This document shows positions 27,758-34,490 of a stretch of DNA of 43,681 nucleotides, in pieces; position 1 is the stretch's first letter; every line of letters begins with the position of its first letter. A model generated the notes under the pieces. It did no database searches and was not told the origin of the DNA. It saw nothing but the letters and a program-made list of their open reading frames with translations. Source of the DNA: Bacteroidota bacterium (GTDB lineage Bacteria > Bacteroidota > Bacteroidia > Bacteroidales > UBA7960); the NCBI GenBank assembly GCA_007693555.1, contig REDJ01000122.1, positions 1-43,681 on the forward strand, written 5' to 3'. The translations under genes were made by a program, and so were the position numbers.

Positions 27758-28303
27758 ATGCGTATCAAGAGAATTCCACAAAAAGTAAATCATGAGATTT
27801 CGGATTTATCTGAAAGCATTGATCTGGAATTAATGAGGCCTCTCATTGAAAAGTATAAAAACAAAAAAGGAAATCTTATTCCTCTTTTGCAGGGCACACA
27901 AGAGATTTATGGCTATATTCCCCGGGAAGCCTTTCTCAAACTTAATAGCGTAACCGGGCTTGAACTAAATGAAATGTATGGCGTAGCAACATTTTATGCC
28001 CAGTTCAGGCTGAGCCCGGCCGGTAAACATATAATTAAAATGTGTCATGGTACCGCTTGTCATGTGCAGGGTGTAACAGCCATTACAGATGAGTTGTCTG
28101 ATCTACTTAATGTGAAAGACGGTGAAACCACAGAAGACAAAATTTTCACCCTTGAGACCGTAGCATGCCTGGGGTGTTGTTCACTGGCTCCGGTTATGAT
28201 GATAGGAGAAGAAACCTATGGTAAACTTACTCCAAATCAAGCTGCAAAAATCGTGAAAGAGATCAGAAGAAATGAAAAGCTCAGGGAAAATGAAAAAGTC
28301 TGA
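27758..28303 (+). CDS. NuoE/HydC-like [2Fe-2S] subunit of an NADH-linked redox complex
   Basis: The 181-residue protein belongs to the 24-kDa (NuoE/HydC/HndA) family of thioredoxin-like [2Fe-2S] ferredoxins. An N-terminal helical part (about 20-85) precedes the cluster site with the four ligands C96, C101, C137 and C141 (C-x4-C and C-x3-C). GVATFYAQF (75-83) is also conserved. In complex I, NAD-linked hydrogenases, formate dehydrogenases and Stn-type transhydrogenases this subunit sits beside the NADH/FMN subunit. It is the first gene of a three-gene operon; no membrane Nuo genes are present, so this is not complex I. Confidence 0.93.
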   Translation: MRIKRIPQKVNHEISDLSESIDLELMRPLIEKYKNKKGNLIPLLQGTQEIYGYIPREAFLKLNSVTGLELNEMYGVATFYAQFRLSPAGKHIIKMCHGTACHVQGVTAITDELSDLLNVKDGETTEDKIFTLETVACLGCCSLAPVMMIGEETYGKLTPNQAAKIVKEIRRNEKLRENEKV

Positions 28304-28387: not shown

Positions 28388-30166
28388 ATGAAAAAAGCAA
28401 CAGTAATAGTAGGTCTTGGAAGTTGCGGCCTGGCTGCAGGTGCAGGCAAAACATACGATGAATTTCACCGTATAAGACAAGCTGATAAACTGGATTTTGA
28501 TATAAAAAGAACCAGTTGTATCGGAATGTGTTTTCGTGAGCCCCTGGTTGAGATTATTGACGATACAGGCAAGTATCTTTACGGCAGCGTTGATGTTAAA
28601 CGCGTAGATGAGATCATAGAAAAACACATTAAGAACTTCTCCCCCATTCCGGAGTACATTATTGATTCGGAAAAGTACAAATCGGAAGATTCAGCTTTTT
28701 TTGACGGACAGGTAAAAATCACATTAAGAAACTGCGGGCATATCGACCCTGAAAGTGTAGATGAGTATGAACAAAGGGGTGGTTATGATGCCATGCGAAA
28801 AATTTCCAATGCAAATCTATCACCTGATAAAGTAATTCAGATAGTTTTGGAAAGCGGCATCAGAGGTAGGGGTGGCGGTGGCTTTCCTGCCGGTATGAAA
28901 TGGAAATTTGCACGTAACAACGTTTCAGATAAAAAATACGTAATATGTAATGCGGATGAGGGAGACCCTGGCGCTTTTATGGACCGGTCAATCCTTGAGG
29001 GTGATCCTCACAGCGTAATTGAAGGTATGATAATCTGCGCTTATGCAATAGGTGCCTCTGAAGGTTACATATATTGCCGGGCCGAGTATCCCCTTGCCAT
29101 TAAAAGATTGAATATTGCGCTGGATCAGGCCCGCTCAAAGGGATATCTGGGAGAAAATATATTTGGCATACCCGGGTTTTCTATGGAGATACATATCAAG
29201 GAAGGTGCCGGTGCATTCGTTTGTGGTGAAGAAACCGCACTGATTGCTTCCATAGAGGGTGAAAGAGGAATGCCCCGCCGAAGACCGCCATTCCCTGCCG
29301 AAAGCGGATTATGGAAACATCCAACCAATATCAACAATGTGGAAACATTTGCCAATATTCCCTGGATTATTTACAACGGACCCGAAGCATATGCCAGATA
29401 CGGCACAGAAAAAAGCAAAGGAACAAAAGTATTTGCCCTGACAGGTAAAATCAAACATGGGGGCCTTGTGGAAGTACCTATGGGAATTACAATAAAAGAC
29501 ATCATTTACAAATTGGGAGGGGGTATCATTGGGGATAAAAAATTTAAGGCTGTTCAACTTGGAGGACCCTCAGGTGGATGTATCCCCGAATACCTGTCGC
29601 ACATCCCGGTAGATTACGACAGGGTAAATGAAACAGGTGCTATTATGGGTTCAGGTGGTATGGTTGTAATGGACGAAACCACCTGTGTGGTAGATGTGGC
29701 AAGATTTTTCCTTGACTTTACACAGAAAGAATCATGTGGTAAATGTACTTTCTGCCGAATCGGAACAAAACGTATGCTTGAAATCCTTACCCGGATTACG
29801 GAGGGCGAAGGGAAAGAGGATGATATTGAAACGCTTGAAGAAATAGCCCATACTATCAAAGACAGTTCGCTTTGTGGCCTGGGTCAAACAGCTCCCAATC
29901 CGGTACTCACAACAATTAAGTACTTCCGCGACGAATATGAAGCCCACATACGTGATCATAAATGTCCTGCACTGAGCTGCAAAAAGTTACTCACTTATGA
30001 GGTAATTGAAGAAAACTGCACAGGTTGTATGGCTTGTGCCAGGGGATGCCCCGTAGATGCAATAGAAGGAGAGAAGAAACAACCTCATAATATTCTTCAG
30101 GATGTGTGCATTCAATGCGGAGTATGTTTTACAAAATGTAAATTTAAAGCCATACGGTTATCCTGA
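28388..30166 (+). CDS. NuoF/HydB-like NADH- and FMN-binding iron-sulfur subunit
   Basis: The 592-residue soluble protein has the full HydB domain order. An N-terminal thioredoxin-like [2Fe-2S] domain (about 1-85, C13, C44, C48) comes first. The NuoF core follows, with RGRGGGGFPAGMKW (159-172, NADH/FMN), CNADEGDPGAFMDR (187-200) and GAGAFVCGEETALIASIEG (273-291). The core [4Fe-4S] ligands are C450, C453, C456 and C496. Two extra Cys (C526, C531) as in HydB precede a C-terminal 2x[4Fe-4S] ferredoxin domain (C544/547/550/554 and C574/577/580/584). Complex I NuoF lacks the extra N- and C-terminal domains; bifurcating hydrogenases and Stn complexes have them. The subunit oxidises or reduces NAD(H) and passes electrons to the 1224-residue partner. 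Only three Cys are visible in the N-terminal domain, so its cluster may be atypical. Confidence 0.94.
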   Translation: MKKATVIVGLGSCGLAAGAGKTYDEFHRIRQADKLDFDIKRTSCIGMCFREPLVEIIDDTGKYLYGSVDVKRVDEIIEKHIKNFSPIPEYIIDSEKYKSEDSAFFDGQVKITLRNCGHIDPESVDEYEQRGGYDAMRKISNANLSPDKVIQIVLESGIRGRGGGGFPAGMKWKFARNNVSDKKYVICNADEGDPGAFMDRSILEGDPHSVIEGMIICAYAIGASEGYIYCRAEYPLAIKRLNIALDQARSKGYLGENIFGIPGFSMEIHIKEGAGAFVCGEETALIASIEGERGMPRRRPPFPAESGLWKHPTNINNVETFANIPWIIYNGPEAYARYGTEKSKGTKVFALTGKIKHGGLVEVPMGITIKDIIYKLGGGIIGDKKFKAVQLGGPSGGCIPEYLSHIPVDYDRVNETGAIMGSGGMVVMDETTCVVDVARFFLDFTQKESCGKCTFCRIGTKRMLEILTRITEGEGKEDDIETLEEIAHTIKDSSLCGLGQTAPNPVLTTIKYFRDEYEAHIRDHKCPALSCKKLLTYEVIEENCTGCMACARGCPVDAIEGEKKQPHNILQDVCIQCGVCFTKCKFKAIRLS

Positions 30167-30241: not shown

Positions 30242-33200
30242 ATGAGTAAACTCAATATAATCATCAACGGAAAAATTGTTCAGGGACTCAGAGGAGAATC
30301 CATTCTGAAAATGTCGCGCCGGTTGGGTGTTGAAATTCCTACTTTGTGCCATGACCCCAGGTTGGAACCTTATTCCTCATGTTACCTATGTGTTGTGGAA
30401 GTAGAAGGCATGCGTGGTCTGCAGCCGGCCTGCTCCACTAAAATAACAGAGGGAATGCGCATTGAAACCGAAAATGAAAGGGTTGTAAAATCACGAAAAT
30501 TTGCACTGGAACTAATGGTTAGTAACCATTATGCCGATTGTGTGGCACCCTGCAAAGAACGTTGCCCGGCAGGAGTTGATGTGCAAGGTTATATCGCACT
30601 CATAAATCAGGGAAAACATCGTGAAGCAACAGGTTTGATAAAACAAACCAACCCGTTACCTGCAATTTGCGGACGCGTTTGTGTGCGCCCCTGTGAAGTT
30701 GCCTGCCGCAGAAACCTGGTTGAAGGTGTTGGTGTGGGAATTGATTATTTGAAAAGATACACTTCTGACATAGATTTGTTTTCTGACAATCGCTTCATGC
30801 CAGAAGTAAAACCCCAAACAGGAAAAAAAGTAGCTGTAATTGGTGCAGGCCCCGGTGGCCTGAGTGCAGCTTATTTTCTGGCTACCGAAGGTCATAAAGC
30901 AGAGATATTTGAGGCCAGCTCCCATCCCGGAGGAATGCTGCGTTATGGTATACCACCCTATCGCTTGCCTAATGATATAATTAACAAGGAAGTAGAAGGA
31001 ATTACTGAACTTGGTGTTGAAATCCATTACAATAAAAAACTTGGTGATAATCTCTCTTACAAAGAACTGAAAGATAACTTTGATGCTGTAATTCTTGGTA
31101 TTGGTTCGCAGATTGGTACCGGTATTGGTTGTGAAAATGATGATGCCGGAAATATATTCTCCGGAATCGATTTTCTGCGCAATATGGAAATGACCGGGCA
31201 GAAGTATGATTTTACAGGAAAAAAAGTTGCCGTAATAGGTGGCGGCAATACAGCCATGGACTGCTGCAGGACAGCCATGCGATGCGGCTCAACAGACGTT
31301 ACGGTTCTATATCGCCGGACAGAAAAAGAAATGCCCGCCAACCCCATCGAAATTCATGAATCAAAGCTGGAGGGAATAAAGTACAGGTTCTTGACTGCTC
31401 CTGCCAGGGTTAACAAGGATGAAAACGGAAATCTGAAATCATTGACTTGTTTTCAAATGGAGCTGGGTGAGCCGGATGCTTCCGGTAGAAGAAGGCCGGT
31501 TAAAATTGAAGGCTCTGAGTTTGACATAGAACTTGACTATATTTTAGCTGCCATTGGACAAAAAACCAATGTCAACTTTATAGATGATATAAATACTCAT
31601 GCTGAAATTGAATTGCGACTGAATAAATGGGGTGATATTGATGCAGATCCAAAGACTCTTCAAACCAGCATCAAAAATGTTTTTGCCTGTGGAGACGGGG
31701 TTACAGGTCCTGCAACACTTATTGAAGCTATAGCCCAGGGACGCCTTGCAGCACAAAGTTGCGACAAATTCCTTCGTGGGCAGGAAGTTTCACCTCCCGA
31801 TTTTGAATTCATCAGCAGGAAGAATAACTTTCAGGAGCAAAAATCCGAAGAATATGCAGAATTTTTTGAAAAGCAGAGCCGTGAGGAAATGCCTACCATC
31901 GATCCTTCCGTTCGGAAAAACTTTGATGAGGTTGAACTGGGTTATACTAAAAAACAAGCGATAGATGAAACCCTGAGATGCCTTGAATGCGGGTGCTCTG
32001 AATATTATACCTGTGACCTGAAGAAGTATTCAACTAAATACCACACTGAACTCAAAAGGTTTTCAGGTGACTATCAGAAGTTTCATGTTGATTTTTCTCA
32101 CCCCCATATTGAAATAGATAACAACAAATGCATCTTGTGCGGACGTTGTGTGAGGATATGCAAGGAAGTTGTAGGTGCTAATGCCCTGGGGCTTGTCAAC
32201 AGAGGATTTGAGAGTTATGTTGCACCCAGCCTGGAGGGCAGTTTAACTGACACGAATTGCGAATCATGTGGCATGTGCATTTCAACATGTCCTACAGGAG
32301 CCATAACAGAAAATGTGCCCTTTAAGGCAGGCCCCGTGGCTACTGAAAGTTTCAAATCAATTTGCAATTATTGCTCCATAGGATGTGAAGTGGAATATCA
32401 TCACAAAACCGGTTTTATAACAAGGGTTACAGGCAGTAACGGGATAATAAACAAAGAAGGAAATATCTGCAAATTTCCCAGGTTTGGTTATAAATACATA
32501 AATAACAAAGAACGGATAACCCAGCCGATGCTCAGGGAAAATGGCGAATTTAAGCATATATCCTTCAACAAGGCTTTTGAAATAATTAAAGAAAAAATTT
32601 CGAGTGCAGAACCCGATAAAAATGCTTTCTATGTGGGTGCAAGATTATCAAATGAAGAAATATACCTGATTCAGAAGCTTGCAAGGGCTGGTGTAAAAAC
32701 AAATAATATTTCCAGCTTCCATTATATGGAGCGCGGAGGTGGTTACCTGGATAATTCAAATGAAAATGTACCTTTCAGTCAACTTGAAAAGGCTGGTAAG
32801 ATTTATCTGATTGGCAGTGAAATAAACCTTGAAAACGGGGTTGCCGGATTTTATGTGTACAACAACTGCTTCATGAACAATATCCCCCTAATAGTGATAT
32901 CTGATAAGGAACACAGCAGCATGTCGCATAAAGCGGATTCTGAAATAAAGGTCGGGTCATATTATTATTTCATTAAGGCAGTAATTTATCAAATATTAAA
33001 GGAGGGCCTTGAAAACAGCGTCTATCTGGATGACCATATTCCGGATTTTGAAGATTTTAAGGAAAAGGTACTTTCTGAAAACTTTGAGCAACTTATTGAA
33101 AAAAGTGGTTGCAGTAAAGAGATTATAATTGAATTTGCAAGGGAATATAACAAAGAAAATCATGCAGTTGTAATCTTTGCTGAGAAGAACCTGGGTAGTA

Positions 33201-33916
33201 ATGCTTGCCAGGAACTCAGAAATCTTTCACATATTACGGGAAAAACAGGAAAATCGGCATCGGGTCTGATTTCATTGAAAGAAAAAAACAATTCCCAGGG
33301 TATTTTTGATATGGGTGGCTGCGCAACTCTCATGGTCGGGGGTCGGAATAACAATACCAACGGCGTGAGTGAATTGATAAAAGAAACCTGGCAAATTGAG
33401 AAACTACCGGCAAAGATTAATTCTAATCAACTGGGCTTGCTTCAGGAAGGAAAAATCAGGAATATGCTTATTTTTGGTGAGGATCCCTTAGGTACAGCTT
33501 CAGATAAGGAAAAGGTTAAGCAATGGCTTTCGAATGCAGGCTTTCTGGTAGTTCAGGAATATTTTCTAAGTGAAACTGCGCTTATGGCAGACCTTATATT
33601 ACCGGCAAGTTTGCCATTTGAAACCGGTGGAAGCTTTACAAATACCCAGAAGTACATTCAGCAATTTGGAAAAACTCATCAAGGCCCTCTGGAAAAAGAT
33701 AATTTTGTACAACTAAAAGCATTGCATAAAGCATTTGGTTTGAAGGATGATTATGAAACTCCTGTGGATGTTATGCTTGAAGCAGCTTCAATTTTACAAA
33801 AATTGACTCCGGAAAATCATAAGCGCAAACTGATTGCAACAAATGAGGATAATAGGCTGTATTTATTTGAGAACGGATGTGATTTTATTCAAAATAGCTT
33901 TGAAAAATTGATTTAG
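30242..33916 (+). CDS. Chimeric Fe-S flavoprotein: NuoG/FdhA-like chain with inserted GltD/NfnB NAD(P)H module
   Basis: Domains of this 1224-residue soluble protein, in order: NuoG-type [2Fe-2S] (C36, C47, C50, C64). A GltD/NfnB-like module at about 96-515 follows, with Fe-S Cys C100/104/108 and C143/147/151/155, FAD motif VIGAGPGG (199-206), second nucleotide site VIGGGNTAMD (331-340), YRRTEKEMP (357-365) as in NADPH-binding members, and FACGDG (481-486). Then come CLECGC (580-585), 2x[4Fe-4S] (C630/633/636/640, C673/676/679/683), a molybdopterin-type [4Fe-4S] (C708/711/715/743) and a molybdopterin-oxidoreductase fold to the end. Formate dehydrogenases have Cys/Sec-His where this protein reads SSFHYME (824-830), and the C-terminal dinucleotide-binding domain appears absent. 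I infer an electron-bifurcating Stn-like NADH/NADPH/ferredoxin transhydrogenase. Database names such as formate dehydrogenase alpha would be misleading. Confidence 0.88.
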   Translation: MSKLNIIINGKIVQGLRGESILKMSRRLGVEIPTLCHDPRLEPYSSCYLCVVEVEGMRGLQPACSTKITEGMRIETENERVVKSRKFALELMVSNHYADCVAPCKERCPAGVDVQGYIALINQGKHREATGLIKQTNPLPAICGRVCVRPCEVACRRNLVEGVGVGIDYLKRYTSDIDLFSDNRFMPEVKPQTGKKVAVIGAGPGGLSAAYFLATEGHKAEIFEASSHPGGMLRYGIPPYRLPNDIINKEVEGITELGVEIHYNKKLGDNLSYKELKDNFDAVILGIGSQIGTGIGCENDDAGNIFSGIDFLRNMEMTGQKYDFTGKKVAVIGGGNTAMDCCRTAMRCGSTDVTVLYRRTEKEMPANPIEIHESKLEGIKYRFLTAPARVNKDENGNLKSLTCFQMELGEPDASGRRRPVKIEGSEFDIELDYILAAIGQKTNVNFIDDINTHAEIELRLNKWGDIDADPKTLQTSIKNVFACGDGVTGPATLIEAIAQGRLAAQSCDKFLRGQEVSPPDFEFISRKNNFQEQKSEEYAEFFEKQSREEMPTIDPSVRKNFDEVELGYTKKQAIDETLRCLECGCSEYYTCDLKKYSTKYHTELKRFSGDYQKFHVDFSHPHIEIDNNKCILCGRCVRICKEVVGANALGLVNRGFESYVAPSLEGSLTDTNCESCGMCISTCPTGAITENVPFKAGPVATESFKSICNYCSIGCEVEYHHKTGFITRVTGSNGIINKEGNICKFPRFGYKYINNKERITQPMLRENGEFKHISFNKAFEIIKEKISSAEPDKNAFYVGARLSNEEIYLIQKLARAGVKTNNISSFHYMERGGGYLDNSNENVPFSQLEKAGKIYLIGSEINLENGVAGFYVYNNCFMNNIPLIVISDKEHSSMSHKADSEIKVGSYYYFIKAVIYQILKEGLENSVYLDDHIPDFEDFKEKVLSENFEQLIEKSGCSKEIIIEFAREYNKENHAVVIFAEKNLGSNACQELRNLSHITGKTGKSASGLISLKEKNNSQGIFDMGGCATLMVGGRNNNTNGVSELIKETWQIEKLPAKINSNQLGLLQEGKIRNMLIFGEDPLGTASDKEKVKQWLSNAGFLVVQEYFLSETALMADLILPASLPFETGGSFTNTQKYIQQFGKTHQGPLEKDNFVQLKALHKAFGLKDDYETPVDVMLEAASILQKLTPENHKRKLIATNEDNRLYLFENGCDFIQNSFEKLI

Positions 33917-34034: not shown

Positions 34035-34490
34035 ATGGAAAAATTTAAAAACATTGACGATGTTCTTGACTTTGCCATGAAGTCGGAACAAGAGGCAGTA
34101 GATTTTTATAACCAACTTGCCTCCACTATGCAAAACCAGGAGATGAAGGATACTTTTCTTCAGTTTGCCAAAGAAGAAGTAGGCCATAAAGCTCGGCTGC
34201 AAAAGATTAAAGACGAAAGATTATTTGATCTTTCCGACGAAAAAGTTCAGGATTTGCAGATTTCAGATTATGTAGTAAATGTAAAACCTTCACCTGACAT
34301 GAAATATGCTGATGCTTTGGTGCTGGCTATGAAAAAGGAAAAAGCAGCTTTCAAACTCTACACCAACCTGGCTCAAAAAACAGAAAATCACGAAATAAAA
34401 GCTGTGTTTCAGAATCTTGCTGTTGAAGAATCAAAACATAAACTTCGTTTTGAGCTGGAATATGATGAATATGTAATGCGGGAAAATTAA
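34035..34490 (+). CDS. Rubrerythrin-like ferritin-family diiron protein
   Basis: The 151-residue four-helix protein has two helix pairs with diiron ligands: a Glu in SEQEA (18-20) and EEVGH (47-51) in the first half, E102 and EESKH (131-135) in the second. There is no C-terminal rubredoxin domain, so it is of the short, rubredoxin-free rubrerythrin/YciF-like type. Such proteins reduce peroxide or handle iron in anaerobes; the electron donor is not visible here. It lies 118 bases after the redox operon, and a terminator follows. Co-regulation with the redox operon is possible but not shown. Confidence 0.88.
   Translation: MEKFKNIDDVLDFAMKSEQEAVDFYNQLASTMQNQEMKDTFLQFAKEEVGHKARLQKIKDERLFDLSDEKVQDLQISDYVVNVKPSPDMKYADALVLAMKKEKAAFKLYTNLAQKTENHEIKAVFQNLAVEESKHKLRFELEYDEYVMREN

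Follow-up and report, generated by a model that had tools for sequence, protein, structure and literature searches.

StnABC, also described as Nfn-Bfu or Type 1 Bfu, is an electron-bifurcating transhydrogenase whose A subunit (StnC, Nfn-BfuA) combines a [2Fe-2S] domain, a GltD module, a ferredoxin pair and an FdhF-like domain. Integration of GltD into a NuoG-like protein was proposed by Toth et al. 2008, as cited by Kremp et al. 2020 (PMC7483475), who quoted both Cys-rich junction motifs as products of this integration, conserved in StnC; whether the motifs bind Fe-S clusters was not known to them. Such enzymes were placed in the Bfu family, with members noted in Bacteroidetes, by Schut et al. 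2022 (PMC9304861), and StnABC of Sporomusa ovata was studied by cryo-electron microscopy by Kumar et al. 2023 (PMC10482914). The present work describes a StnC-like gene in the window, the whole 43,681-nucleotide contig REDJ01000122.1 of a Bacteroidota bacterium (assembly GCA_007693555.1), and adds a likely map of the metal-cluster ligands shared between the host and GltD halves.

StnC of S. ovata holds six [4Fe-4S] clusters, two in its GltD part and four in its NuoG part, and one [2Fe-2S] cluster. Electrons follow the path FAD-C7-C6-C5-C4-C3 to StnB, and edge-to-edge distances are 9-18 Å within the protomer, except for one gap of more than 25 Å between StnA and StnB. Lys170 is found at C7, the FAD is non-bifurcating and the FdhF domain is inactive (PMC10482914). 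The GltD-in-NuoG architecture and the electron path are thus already published, the motifs and the integration by Kremp et al. 2020 and the path in the 2023 structural paper.

Layout of the StnC-like gene and its closest relatives

An open reading frame (ORF) of 1224 amino acids (aa) at 30242-33916 of the + strand very probably encodes the StnC (Nfn-BfuA) subunit of a StnABC-type ferredoxin-dependent electron-bifurcating transhydrogenase. A permuted GltD module of about 482 residues would lie in it between the first and second Cys of the H-x3-C-x2-C-x5-C motif of a NuoG/HydA-like host, with the ligands of clusters C5, C6 and C7 distributed as proposed below. The parts of the gene are the following.

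30242-33916, + strand: stnC-like gene; best PDB matches 8oh5_C (9.4e-234), 9bov_A (1.7e-233) and 9n5u_A (1.6e-187)
30248-30475, + strand: host part 1, NuoG/HydA-like [2Fe-2S] domain, residues 3-78, with C36, C47, C50 and C64 (Pfam Fer2_4, 4e-16)
30527-30541, + strand: N-terminal half of the split His-Cys3 motif, H96-x3-C100 (read in the sequence; invariant in 37 sequences)
30548-31993, + strand: inserted, apparently permuted GltD module, residues ~103-584, 482 residues (best of 1924 excisions; alignments of GltD fusion ORFs)
30551-30772, + strand: GltD Fe-S domain Fer4_20 with C104, C108-P, C147, C151, C155 and K171, all invariant (Pfam Fer4_20, 2.1e-19, matching residues 100-177)
30824-31741, + strand: FAD and NADP(H) Rossmann domains, residues 195-500, with GxGxxA at 333-338 and R241 (Pfam Pyr_redox_2, 3e-30)
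31880-31990, + strand: apparently transposed GltD N-terminal helix with RCLxC, residues 547-583, with C580 and C583 (NfnB match 1.9e-5; profile match 4.1e-10)
31994-32014, + strand: remaining half of the split His-Cys3 motif, C585-x5-C591 (residue 585 is where alignments of HydA and complex I chains begin; PF10588 restored on excision)
32102-32308, + strand: host part 2, domain of two [4Fe-4S] ferredoxin motifs, residues 621-689 (Pfam Fer4_Nqo3, 1.6e-10)
32348-33721, + strand: molybdopterin-oxidoreductase-like domain, Fe4S4 part 703-755 and body 758-1160 (Pfam)

This order of domains is that of the StnABC/Nfn-Bfu A subunit. The stretch H96-x3-C100-x3-C104-x3-C108-P joins the [2Fe-2S] domain to the GltD-type FAD/NADP module, and a second Cys-rich motif, C580-x2-C583-x1-C585-x5-C591, stands directly ahead of the ferredoxin pair, the cysteine quartets of which are 630/633/636/640 and 673/676/679/683. 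Neither the residues of the two motifs nor the ferredoxin cysteines vary among 37 aligned sequences (this protein and 36 relatives, taken from 47 candidate sequences), and the first motif is therefore not a chance pattern. An earlier note on this DNA had read the first motif exactly so and had located the ferredoxin cysteines correctly, at 630-683; the motif C580-C591 had escaped it. K171 and R241 are also invariant and correspond in the alignment to K170 and R239 of S. ovata StnC, and the NADP-type GxGxxA motif, a rule taken from PMC7483475, is present as G333-G334-G335-N-T-A338.

The same alignment served as input for an AlphaFold2 model of residues 1-760, which has a mean predicted local distance difference test score (pLDDT) of 82.6; stretches inside 620-698 fall below 50, which makes the model a poor guide to the ferredoxin pair. 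With this model, Foldseek placed NfnABC of C. saccharolyticus, StnABC of S. ovata and NfnABC of T. sibiricus at the top, in agreement with the sequence search. S. ovata StnC (8oh5, 8oh9) shares the domain order, both Cys-rich motifs, K170/K171, R239/R241 and StnA- and StnB-like partners, and is 44% identical when residues 1-760 are aligned by Foldseek. PMC7483475 prints the second motif with four x, whereas S. ovata StnC has five in our alignment, as here. NfnA of Caldicellulosiruptor saccharolyticus NfnABC (9bov, 9bp5) is alike in architecture and length class (1178 aa), with 45% identity by Foldseek. This organism belongs to another phylum. GltD is likewise inserted in a NuoG-like chain in NfnA of Thermococcus sibiricus (9n5u) and NsoC of T. 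litoralis; both Cys motifs are visible in 9n5u_A and are reported for Nso (PMC7483475). The T. sibiricus chain is shorter, 963 aa against 1224 aa, and the enzyme is without the A4 cluster ligands (PMC9304861). The best NCBIfam matches, PRK12814 over residues 1-644 (646 of 916) and PRK12771 over 64-587 (507 of 516), are both under cut-off, and these models, of 657 and 566 positions, are too short to include the molybdopterin domain.

The molybdopterin domain (758-1160) and the similarity to FdhA chains could also be attributed to a formate dehydrogenase, or to another active molybdenum/tungsten enzyme that has gained an NADP module. Such an enzyme is extremely improbable here. The domain is probably without the catalytic metal ligand, as E830 occupies the catalytic Cys/Sec position by a simple, unaligned position count against the formate dehydrogenase motif. 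The Fdh-alpha model TIGR01591 gives 275 bits against a cut-off of 666, and no formate oxidation is reported for S. ovata Stn, the FdhF domain of which is called inactive (PMC10482914). The candidate was rejected because there is no apparent catalytic Cys/Sec and the model scores are weak.

Site of the GltD insertion in the host chain

The His-Cys3 motif of the host appears to be divided around the insert, with H96-x3-C100 before it and C585-x5-C591 after it; the second Cys-rich motif appears to hold this remainder together with the first two cysteines of the GltD module itself. Alignments with homologous loci (given L numbers) delimit the two parts. The uninserted NuoG-like homologues of L085 (354 aa) and L086 (353 aa) match from residue 1 or 4 to 101 and then 581-823, and other uninserted chains have one segment each above threshold (585-690 in L079, 4-101 in L081 and L083). 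The alignment of PDB HydA and complex I chains begins at residue 585. Conversely, the GltD fusion ORFs of L079, L081, L083, L087 and L098 match residues 102-583 and that of L082 matches 101-583, and no second matching segment was found in these six.

To place the junctions, 1924 excisions were scored against a profile of uninserted homologues. The profile had 14 rows, 13 of them with H-x3-C-x2-C-x5-C; the odd row, the second 354-aa ORF of L085, had been taken by length and is without the motif, and the scan was repeated with the 13 motif-bearing rows. The best cut then joined residues 1-102 to 585 and gave 249.7 bits for the whole sequence versus 221.9 for the uncut chain, the median best-domain score over cuts being 213.3. 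This removal of 482 residues restores H-x3-C-x2-C-x5-C exactly, and the next two cuts are in the same register; the same three cuts are on top with the 14-row profile. The best-domain scores with 14 rows, 245.9 excised versus 112.1 uncut, overstate the gain, the match of the uncut chain being broken into two parts. The highest-scoring cut outside this register was about 5 bits lower, and the evidence for the register is therefore moderate.

The contiguous H-x3-C-x2-C-x5-C of NuoG is absent from the intact chain and present after excision. PF10588, the His-Cys3 domain, scores 29.3 bits in the excised chain against a gathering score of 27, and 15.6 bits with the N-terminal 110 residues alone; it is not among the 25 families listed, out of 36, for the intact residues 1-760. 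The NuoG model TIGR01973 reaches 266 bits against a cut-off of 470. The His of the unbroken H-x3-C-x2-C-x5-C in NuoG/HydA-like homologues is the residue to which H96 aligns, so homology of H96 to the NuoG cluster His, on which the earlier note relied, is supported. The insertion of a GltD-type module at the His-Cys motif, claimed there for 30527-31787, is borne out by the scan and the homologue alignments. The H96 codon is 30527-30529, and 31787, the first base of residue 516, lies past the Rossmann domains (Pyr_redox_2 195-500).

The further claim that two Fe-S motifs had merged was not supported. On such a reading the His-Cys3 motif and the GltD entry motif would be fused, a single hybrid cluster would be bound by H96, C100, C104 and C108, and the NuoG-type cluster would be gone. 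The contiguity and invariance of H96-x3-C100-x3-C104-x3-C108-P speak for it. The missing half of the His-Cys3 motif is, however, found at C585-x5-C591, present together with H96 and C100 (68/68) and absent without them, and S. ovata StnC has six [4Fe-4S] clusters divided between its GltD and NuoG parts (PMC10482914). A merged motif is thus highly unlikely, and it was rejected because the second His-Cys3 half exists at 585-591. The motif seems instead to be divided around the insert, C580 and C583 being regained by a GltD cluster through permutation.

Apparent permutation of the GltD module and putative cluster ligands

The inserted GltD appears to be circularly permuted, with the RCLxC helix from its N-terminus (547-583) now behind the flavin domain, since both an NfnB match and an N-terminus profile fall at 547-591. 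Searched alone, residues 551-591 found as best PDB match residues 15-43 of Thermotoga maritima NfnB (1.9e-5), ahead of the three StnC-type chains, and more weakly P. furiosus NfnL (0.062). A profile of 15 unpermuted GltD/NfnB N-termini matches the StnC-like protein at 547-583 (4.1e-10), with no second site among the 70 best rows. All 12 GltD-sized relatives, which were chosen by hand for GltD-like size, have the RCxxC-terminated segment ahead of the CxxxCP segment, whereas here it comes after the flavin domain. NfnB/SudA, GltD and the N-terminal half of DPD resemble the module in having FAD/NADP domains with two [4Fe-4S] clusters, but their RCxxC helix stands before the module and that of the StnC-like protein after it. 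GltD models score below cut-off on the StnC-like protein.

Only five of the eight GltD ligands seemed conserved in StnC, a published puzzle that the permutation would explain: the first two cysteines would be kept as C580 and C583, with the Lys as eighth ligand. It is probable that the GltD of StnC is a permuted cassette reused in at least three contexts, namely within BfuA, as the C-terminal part of BfuB-like chains and in GltD+ferredoxin proteins, and that its entry into BfuA interrupted a cluster-binding motif, the adjacent C5 and C6 each drawing on ligands more than 400 residues apart. If confirmed, the permutation would be a case of a redox module spliced into a metal-binding motif without loss of either cluster. 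No report of a GltD/StnC permutation was found in the literature searched, which included PMC10482914 and the review PMC8097209 and left out Toth et al. 2008 and the C. saccharolyticus NfnABC paper PMC11829005.

From spacing, homology and co-occurrence we infer that C5 would be bound by H96, C100, C585 and C591, C6 by C104, C155, C580 and C583, and C7 by C108, C147 and C151 plus K171. The partition follows the DPD ligand numbering. The co-occurrence was counted in 120 ORFs, of which 83 were classed (68 complete hosts, 4 cut hosts without the far side, 8 host-free permuted and 3 unpermuted); the 37 unclassed ones include 19 GltD+ferredoxin ORFs, counted separately, L068, and hosts or fragments without GltD. 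H96, C100, C585 and C591 are all present in 69/69 hosts complete across the junction, that is, the 68 classed, which include this gene's own copy and repeated genomes, and L068, a StnC missed by the regular expression, in which all four were seen in the keep-length alignment. At the same spacings they are absent in 27/27 host-free permuted modules (8/8 and 19/19). The four residues thus co-occur with the host and vanish without it, which supports the C5 partition.

C104, C108, C147, C151, C155, K171, C580 and C583 are each kept in the 19 host-free GltD+ferredoxin ORFs (19/19, by alignment). As C104 and C108 were search criteria in both counts, and the trailing RCxxC in the 83-ORF classification only, their presence in those counts is true by construction; H96, C100, C585 and C591 played no part in the search. 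Certain genomes appear as two loci (for example L010/L056, L017/L065, L020/L067 and L022/L074), so the counts are of loci or ORFs and not of independent events. Gap-free motif counts were used because the keep-length alignment is unreliable for short or hostless ORFs: it gives L003, an ORF of the same genome, and several GltD fusions a Cys in column 100.

Besides the close score of a cut in another register, several points weigh against this assignment. The ligands are deduced from sequence, and activity and bifurcation are predictions. V114 stands here where S. ovata StnC has C114; V or I is found at that position in two StnC homologues (PMC10482914). Column 96 holds His in 2/19 host-free ORFs in the gapped alignment (0/19 gap-free), and in 6/8 host-free modules the H96 spacing holds a Cys that context assigns to the BfuB part. 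C100 could also serve C6, as it lies near the site of the second Cys of unpermuted GltD. That Cys is five residues (x4) before the third in 12/12, C100 being four residues (x3) before C104; in host-free L003 a Cys lies one residue further out than C100 would, five ahead of C104, and the gapped alignment puts a Cys in column 100 there and in several GltD fusions. With the architecture unchanged, C100 would then join C104 and C155 at C6, and C5 would consist of H96 and three of C580, C583, C585 and C591. This division is unlikely, though less so than the others considered here: none of the 27 host-free permuted modules has a Cys at the C100 spacing, and C100 stands at the exact NuoG/HydA distance from H96 (the motif being in 13/14 uninserted rows). 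C100 is therefore kept with C5.

Permuted GltD was also observed at the C-terminus of long ORFs in L079 (4363-7428), L081 (4330-7410), L083 (4297-7407), L087 (4372-7404) and L098 (2227-5535), and in L082 and L084. Pfam gave a NuoF/HydB-type part in L079 and L084, the two such fusion ORFs scanned, and a NuoG/HydA-like ORF follows the fusion ORF in L079, L081, L083 and L087. ORFs of 593-723 aa in L088-L097 and L099-L107, largely proteobacterial by title, carry permuted GltD followed by a ferredoxin pair (Pfam run on L088 only). The ORF of L003 (contig C63) is at least 1068 aa long, with permuted GltD at ~478-897, and its first 500 residues gave no Pfam match at E 1e-8.

Predicted function, operon and distribution

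By homology with the S. ovata enzyme, NADP(H) would exchange hydride with the FAD of the inserted GltD module, and the FMN/Fe-S core of StnB-StnA would receive electrons one at a time through C7, C6, C5, C4 and C3 and couple them to NAD(H) and ferredoxin. The electron path from flavin module to Fe-S chain that the earlier note had expected is thus one already on record for S. ovata StnC (FAD-C7-C6-C5-C4-C3; PMC10482914). Against the limit of 14 Å that the note had set for distances between clusters, the published range inside a protomer is 9-18 Å. Since the neighbouring clusters C5 and C6 would each combine residues from the two sides of the insertion, the flavin module and the Fe-S wire would be held in contact. 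The complex is predicted to oxidize NADPH while reducing NAD+ and ferredoxin, or to run the other way; for an anaerobe the latter direction, which yields NADPH from NADH and reduced ferredoxin, seems likely.

The genes flanking stnC are the following.

27758-28303, + strand: stnA-like gene, NuoE/HydC/BfuC-type, thioredoxin-like [2Fe-2S], with C96-x4-C101 and C137-x3-C141 (Pfam PF01257, 2.4e-48)
28388-30166, + strand: stnB-like gene, NuoF/HydB/BfuB-type, FMN, with H520-x5-C526-x4-C531 and two C-terminal [4Fe-4S] ferredoxin motifs (PDB 8oh5_B 6.8e-257, 9n5u_B 3.3e-256, 9bov_B 5.3e-254)
34035-34490, + strand: rubrerythrin-like gene, neighbour of the operon (Pfam Rubrerythrin, 1.3e-16)

H520, C526 and C531 of the StnB-like protein have the spacing of the reference Bfu B2 ligands H525, C531 and C536 (PMC9304861), the comparison covering the His and two Cys among the ligands of that cluster. 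A StnB-like match lies upstream of stnC in 55/56 loci and a StnA-like match in 36/37 with enough flank (L009-L072). A rubrerythrin-like gene follows stnC within 1 kb on the same strand in 37/52 loci, and 15/52 are without it. It adjoins the operon here, in difference from S. ovata Stn. Rubrerythrin is directly downstream of BfuB in BfuA-less Bfu enzymes according to Schut et al. (PMC9304861); unlike in these, the rubrerythrin-like gene here follows a full Nfn-Bfu operon. A sequence check of its product found no rubredoxin CxxC. The linkage suggests a possible tie between the transhydrogenase and peroxide detoxification.

The same neighbour, and the description of the related Nso of Thermococcus litoralis as a sulfur/oxygen oxidoreductase, would suit a non-bifurcating NADPH oxidoreductase that feeds mainly sulfur, or peroxide by way of the rubrerythrin-like protein. 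We consider this improbable, as StnB keeps the H-x5-C-x4-C spacing of Bfu B2 and two ferredoxin motifs, 15/52 loci are without a rubrerythrin-like neighbour, and ferredoxin reduction with NADPH by the T. sibiricus homologue requires NAD+ (PMC9304861). A bifurcating transhydrogenase remains the preferred assignment.

A StnC match at E <=1e-80 was found in 33/34 other genomes of the same family, all of them StnC pieces, some partial; the assignment thus places a protein found in 33/34 genomes of its family among the StnABC/Bfu electron-bifurcating transhydrogenases. Among the best 80 named loci, 40 are Bacteroidales/Bacteroidota by title (Marinilabiliales and Paludibacter included), and the rest are from Delongbacteria, Chlorobi, Bacillota, proteobacteria and more. 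The protein of L056 (Bacteroidales isolate CSSed162cmA_513) is 82% identical. Judged by such relatives, the organism that carries the window is probably an uncultured member of the Bacteroidales. A second StnC-like N-terminus of 370 aa is present in the same genome (L002, contig C187); it ends at the contig edge, is 38% identical over residues 1-316 and has the equivalents of H96 and C100. Stn and Nfn are described as almost mutually exclusive in acetogens (PMC7483475). In L054 (1806-3623, 606 aa) and L062 (1752-3563, 604 aa), an unpermuted GltD/NfnB-type ORF directly precedes the StnA-like match and has the same orientation.

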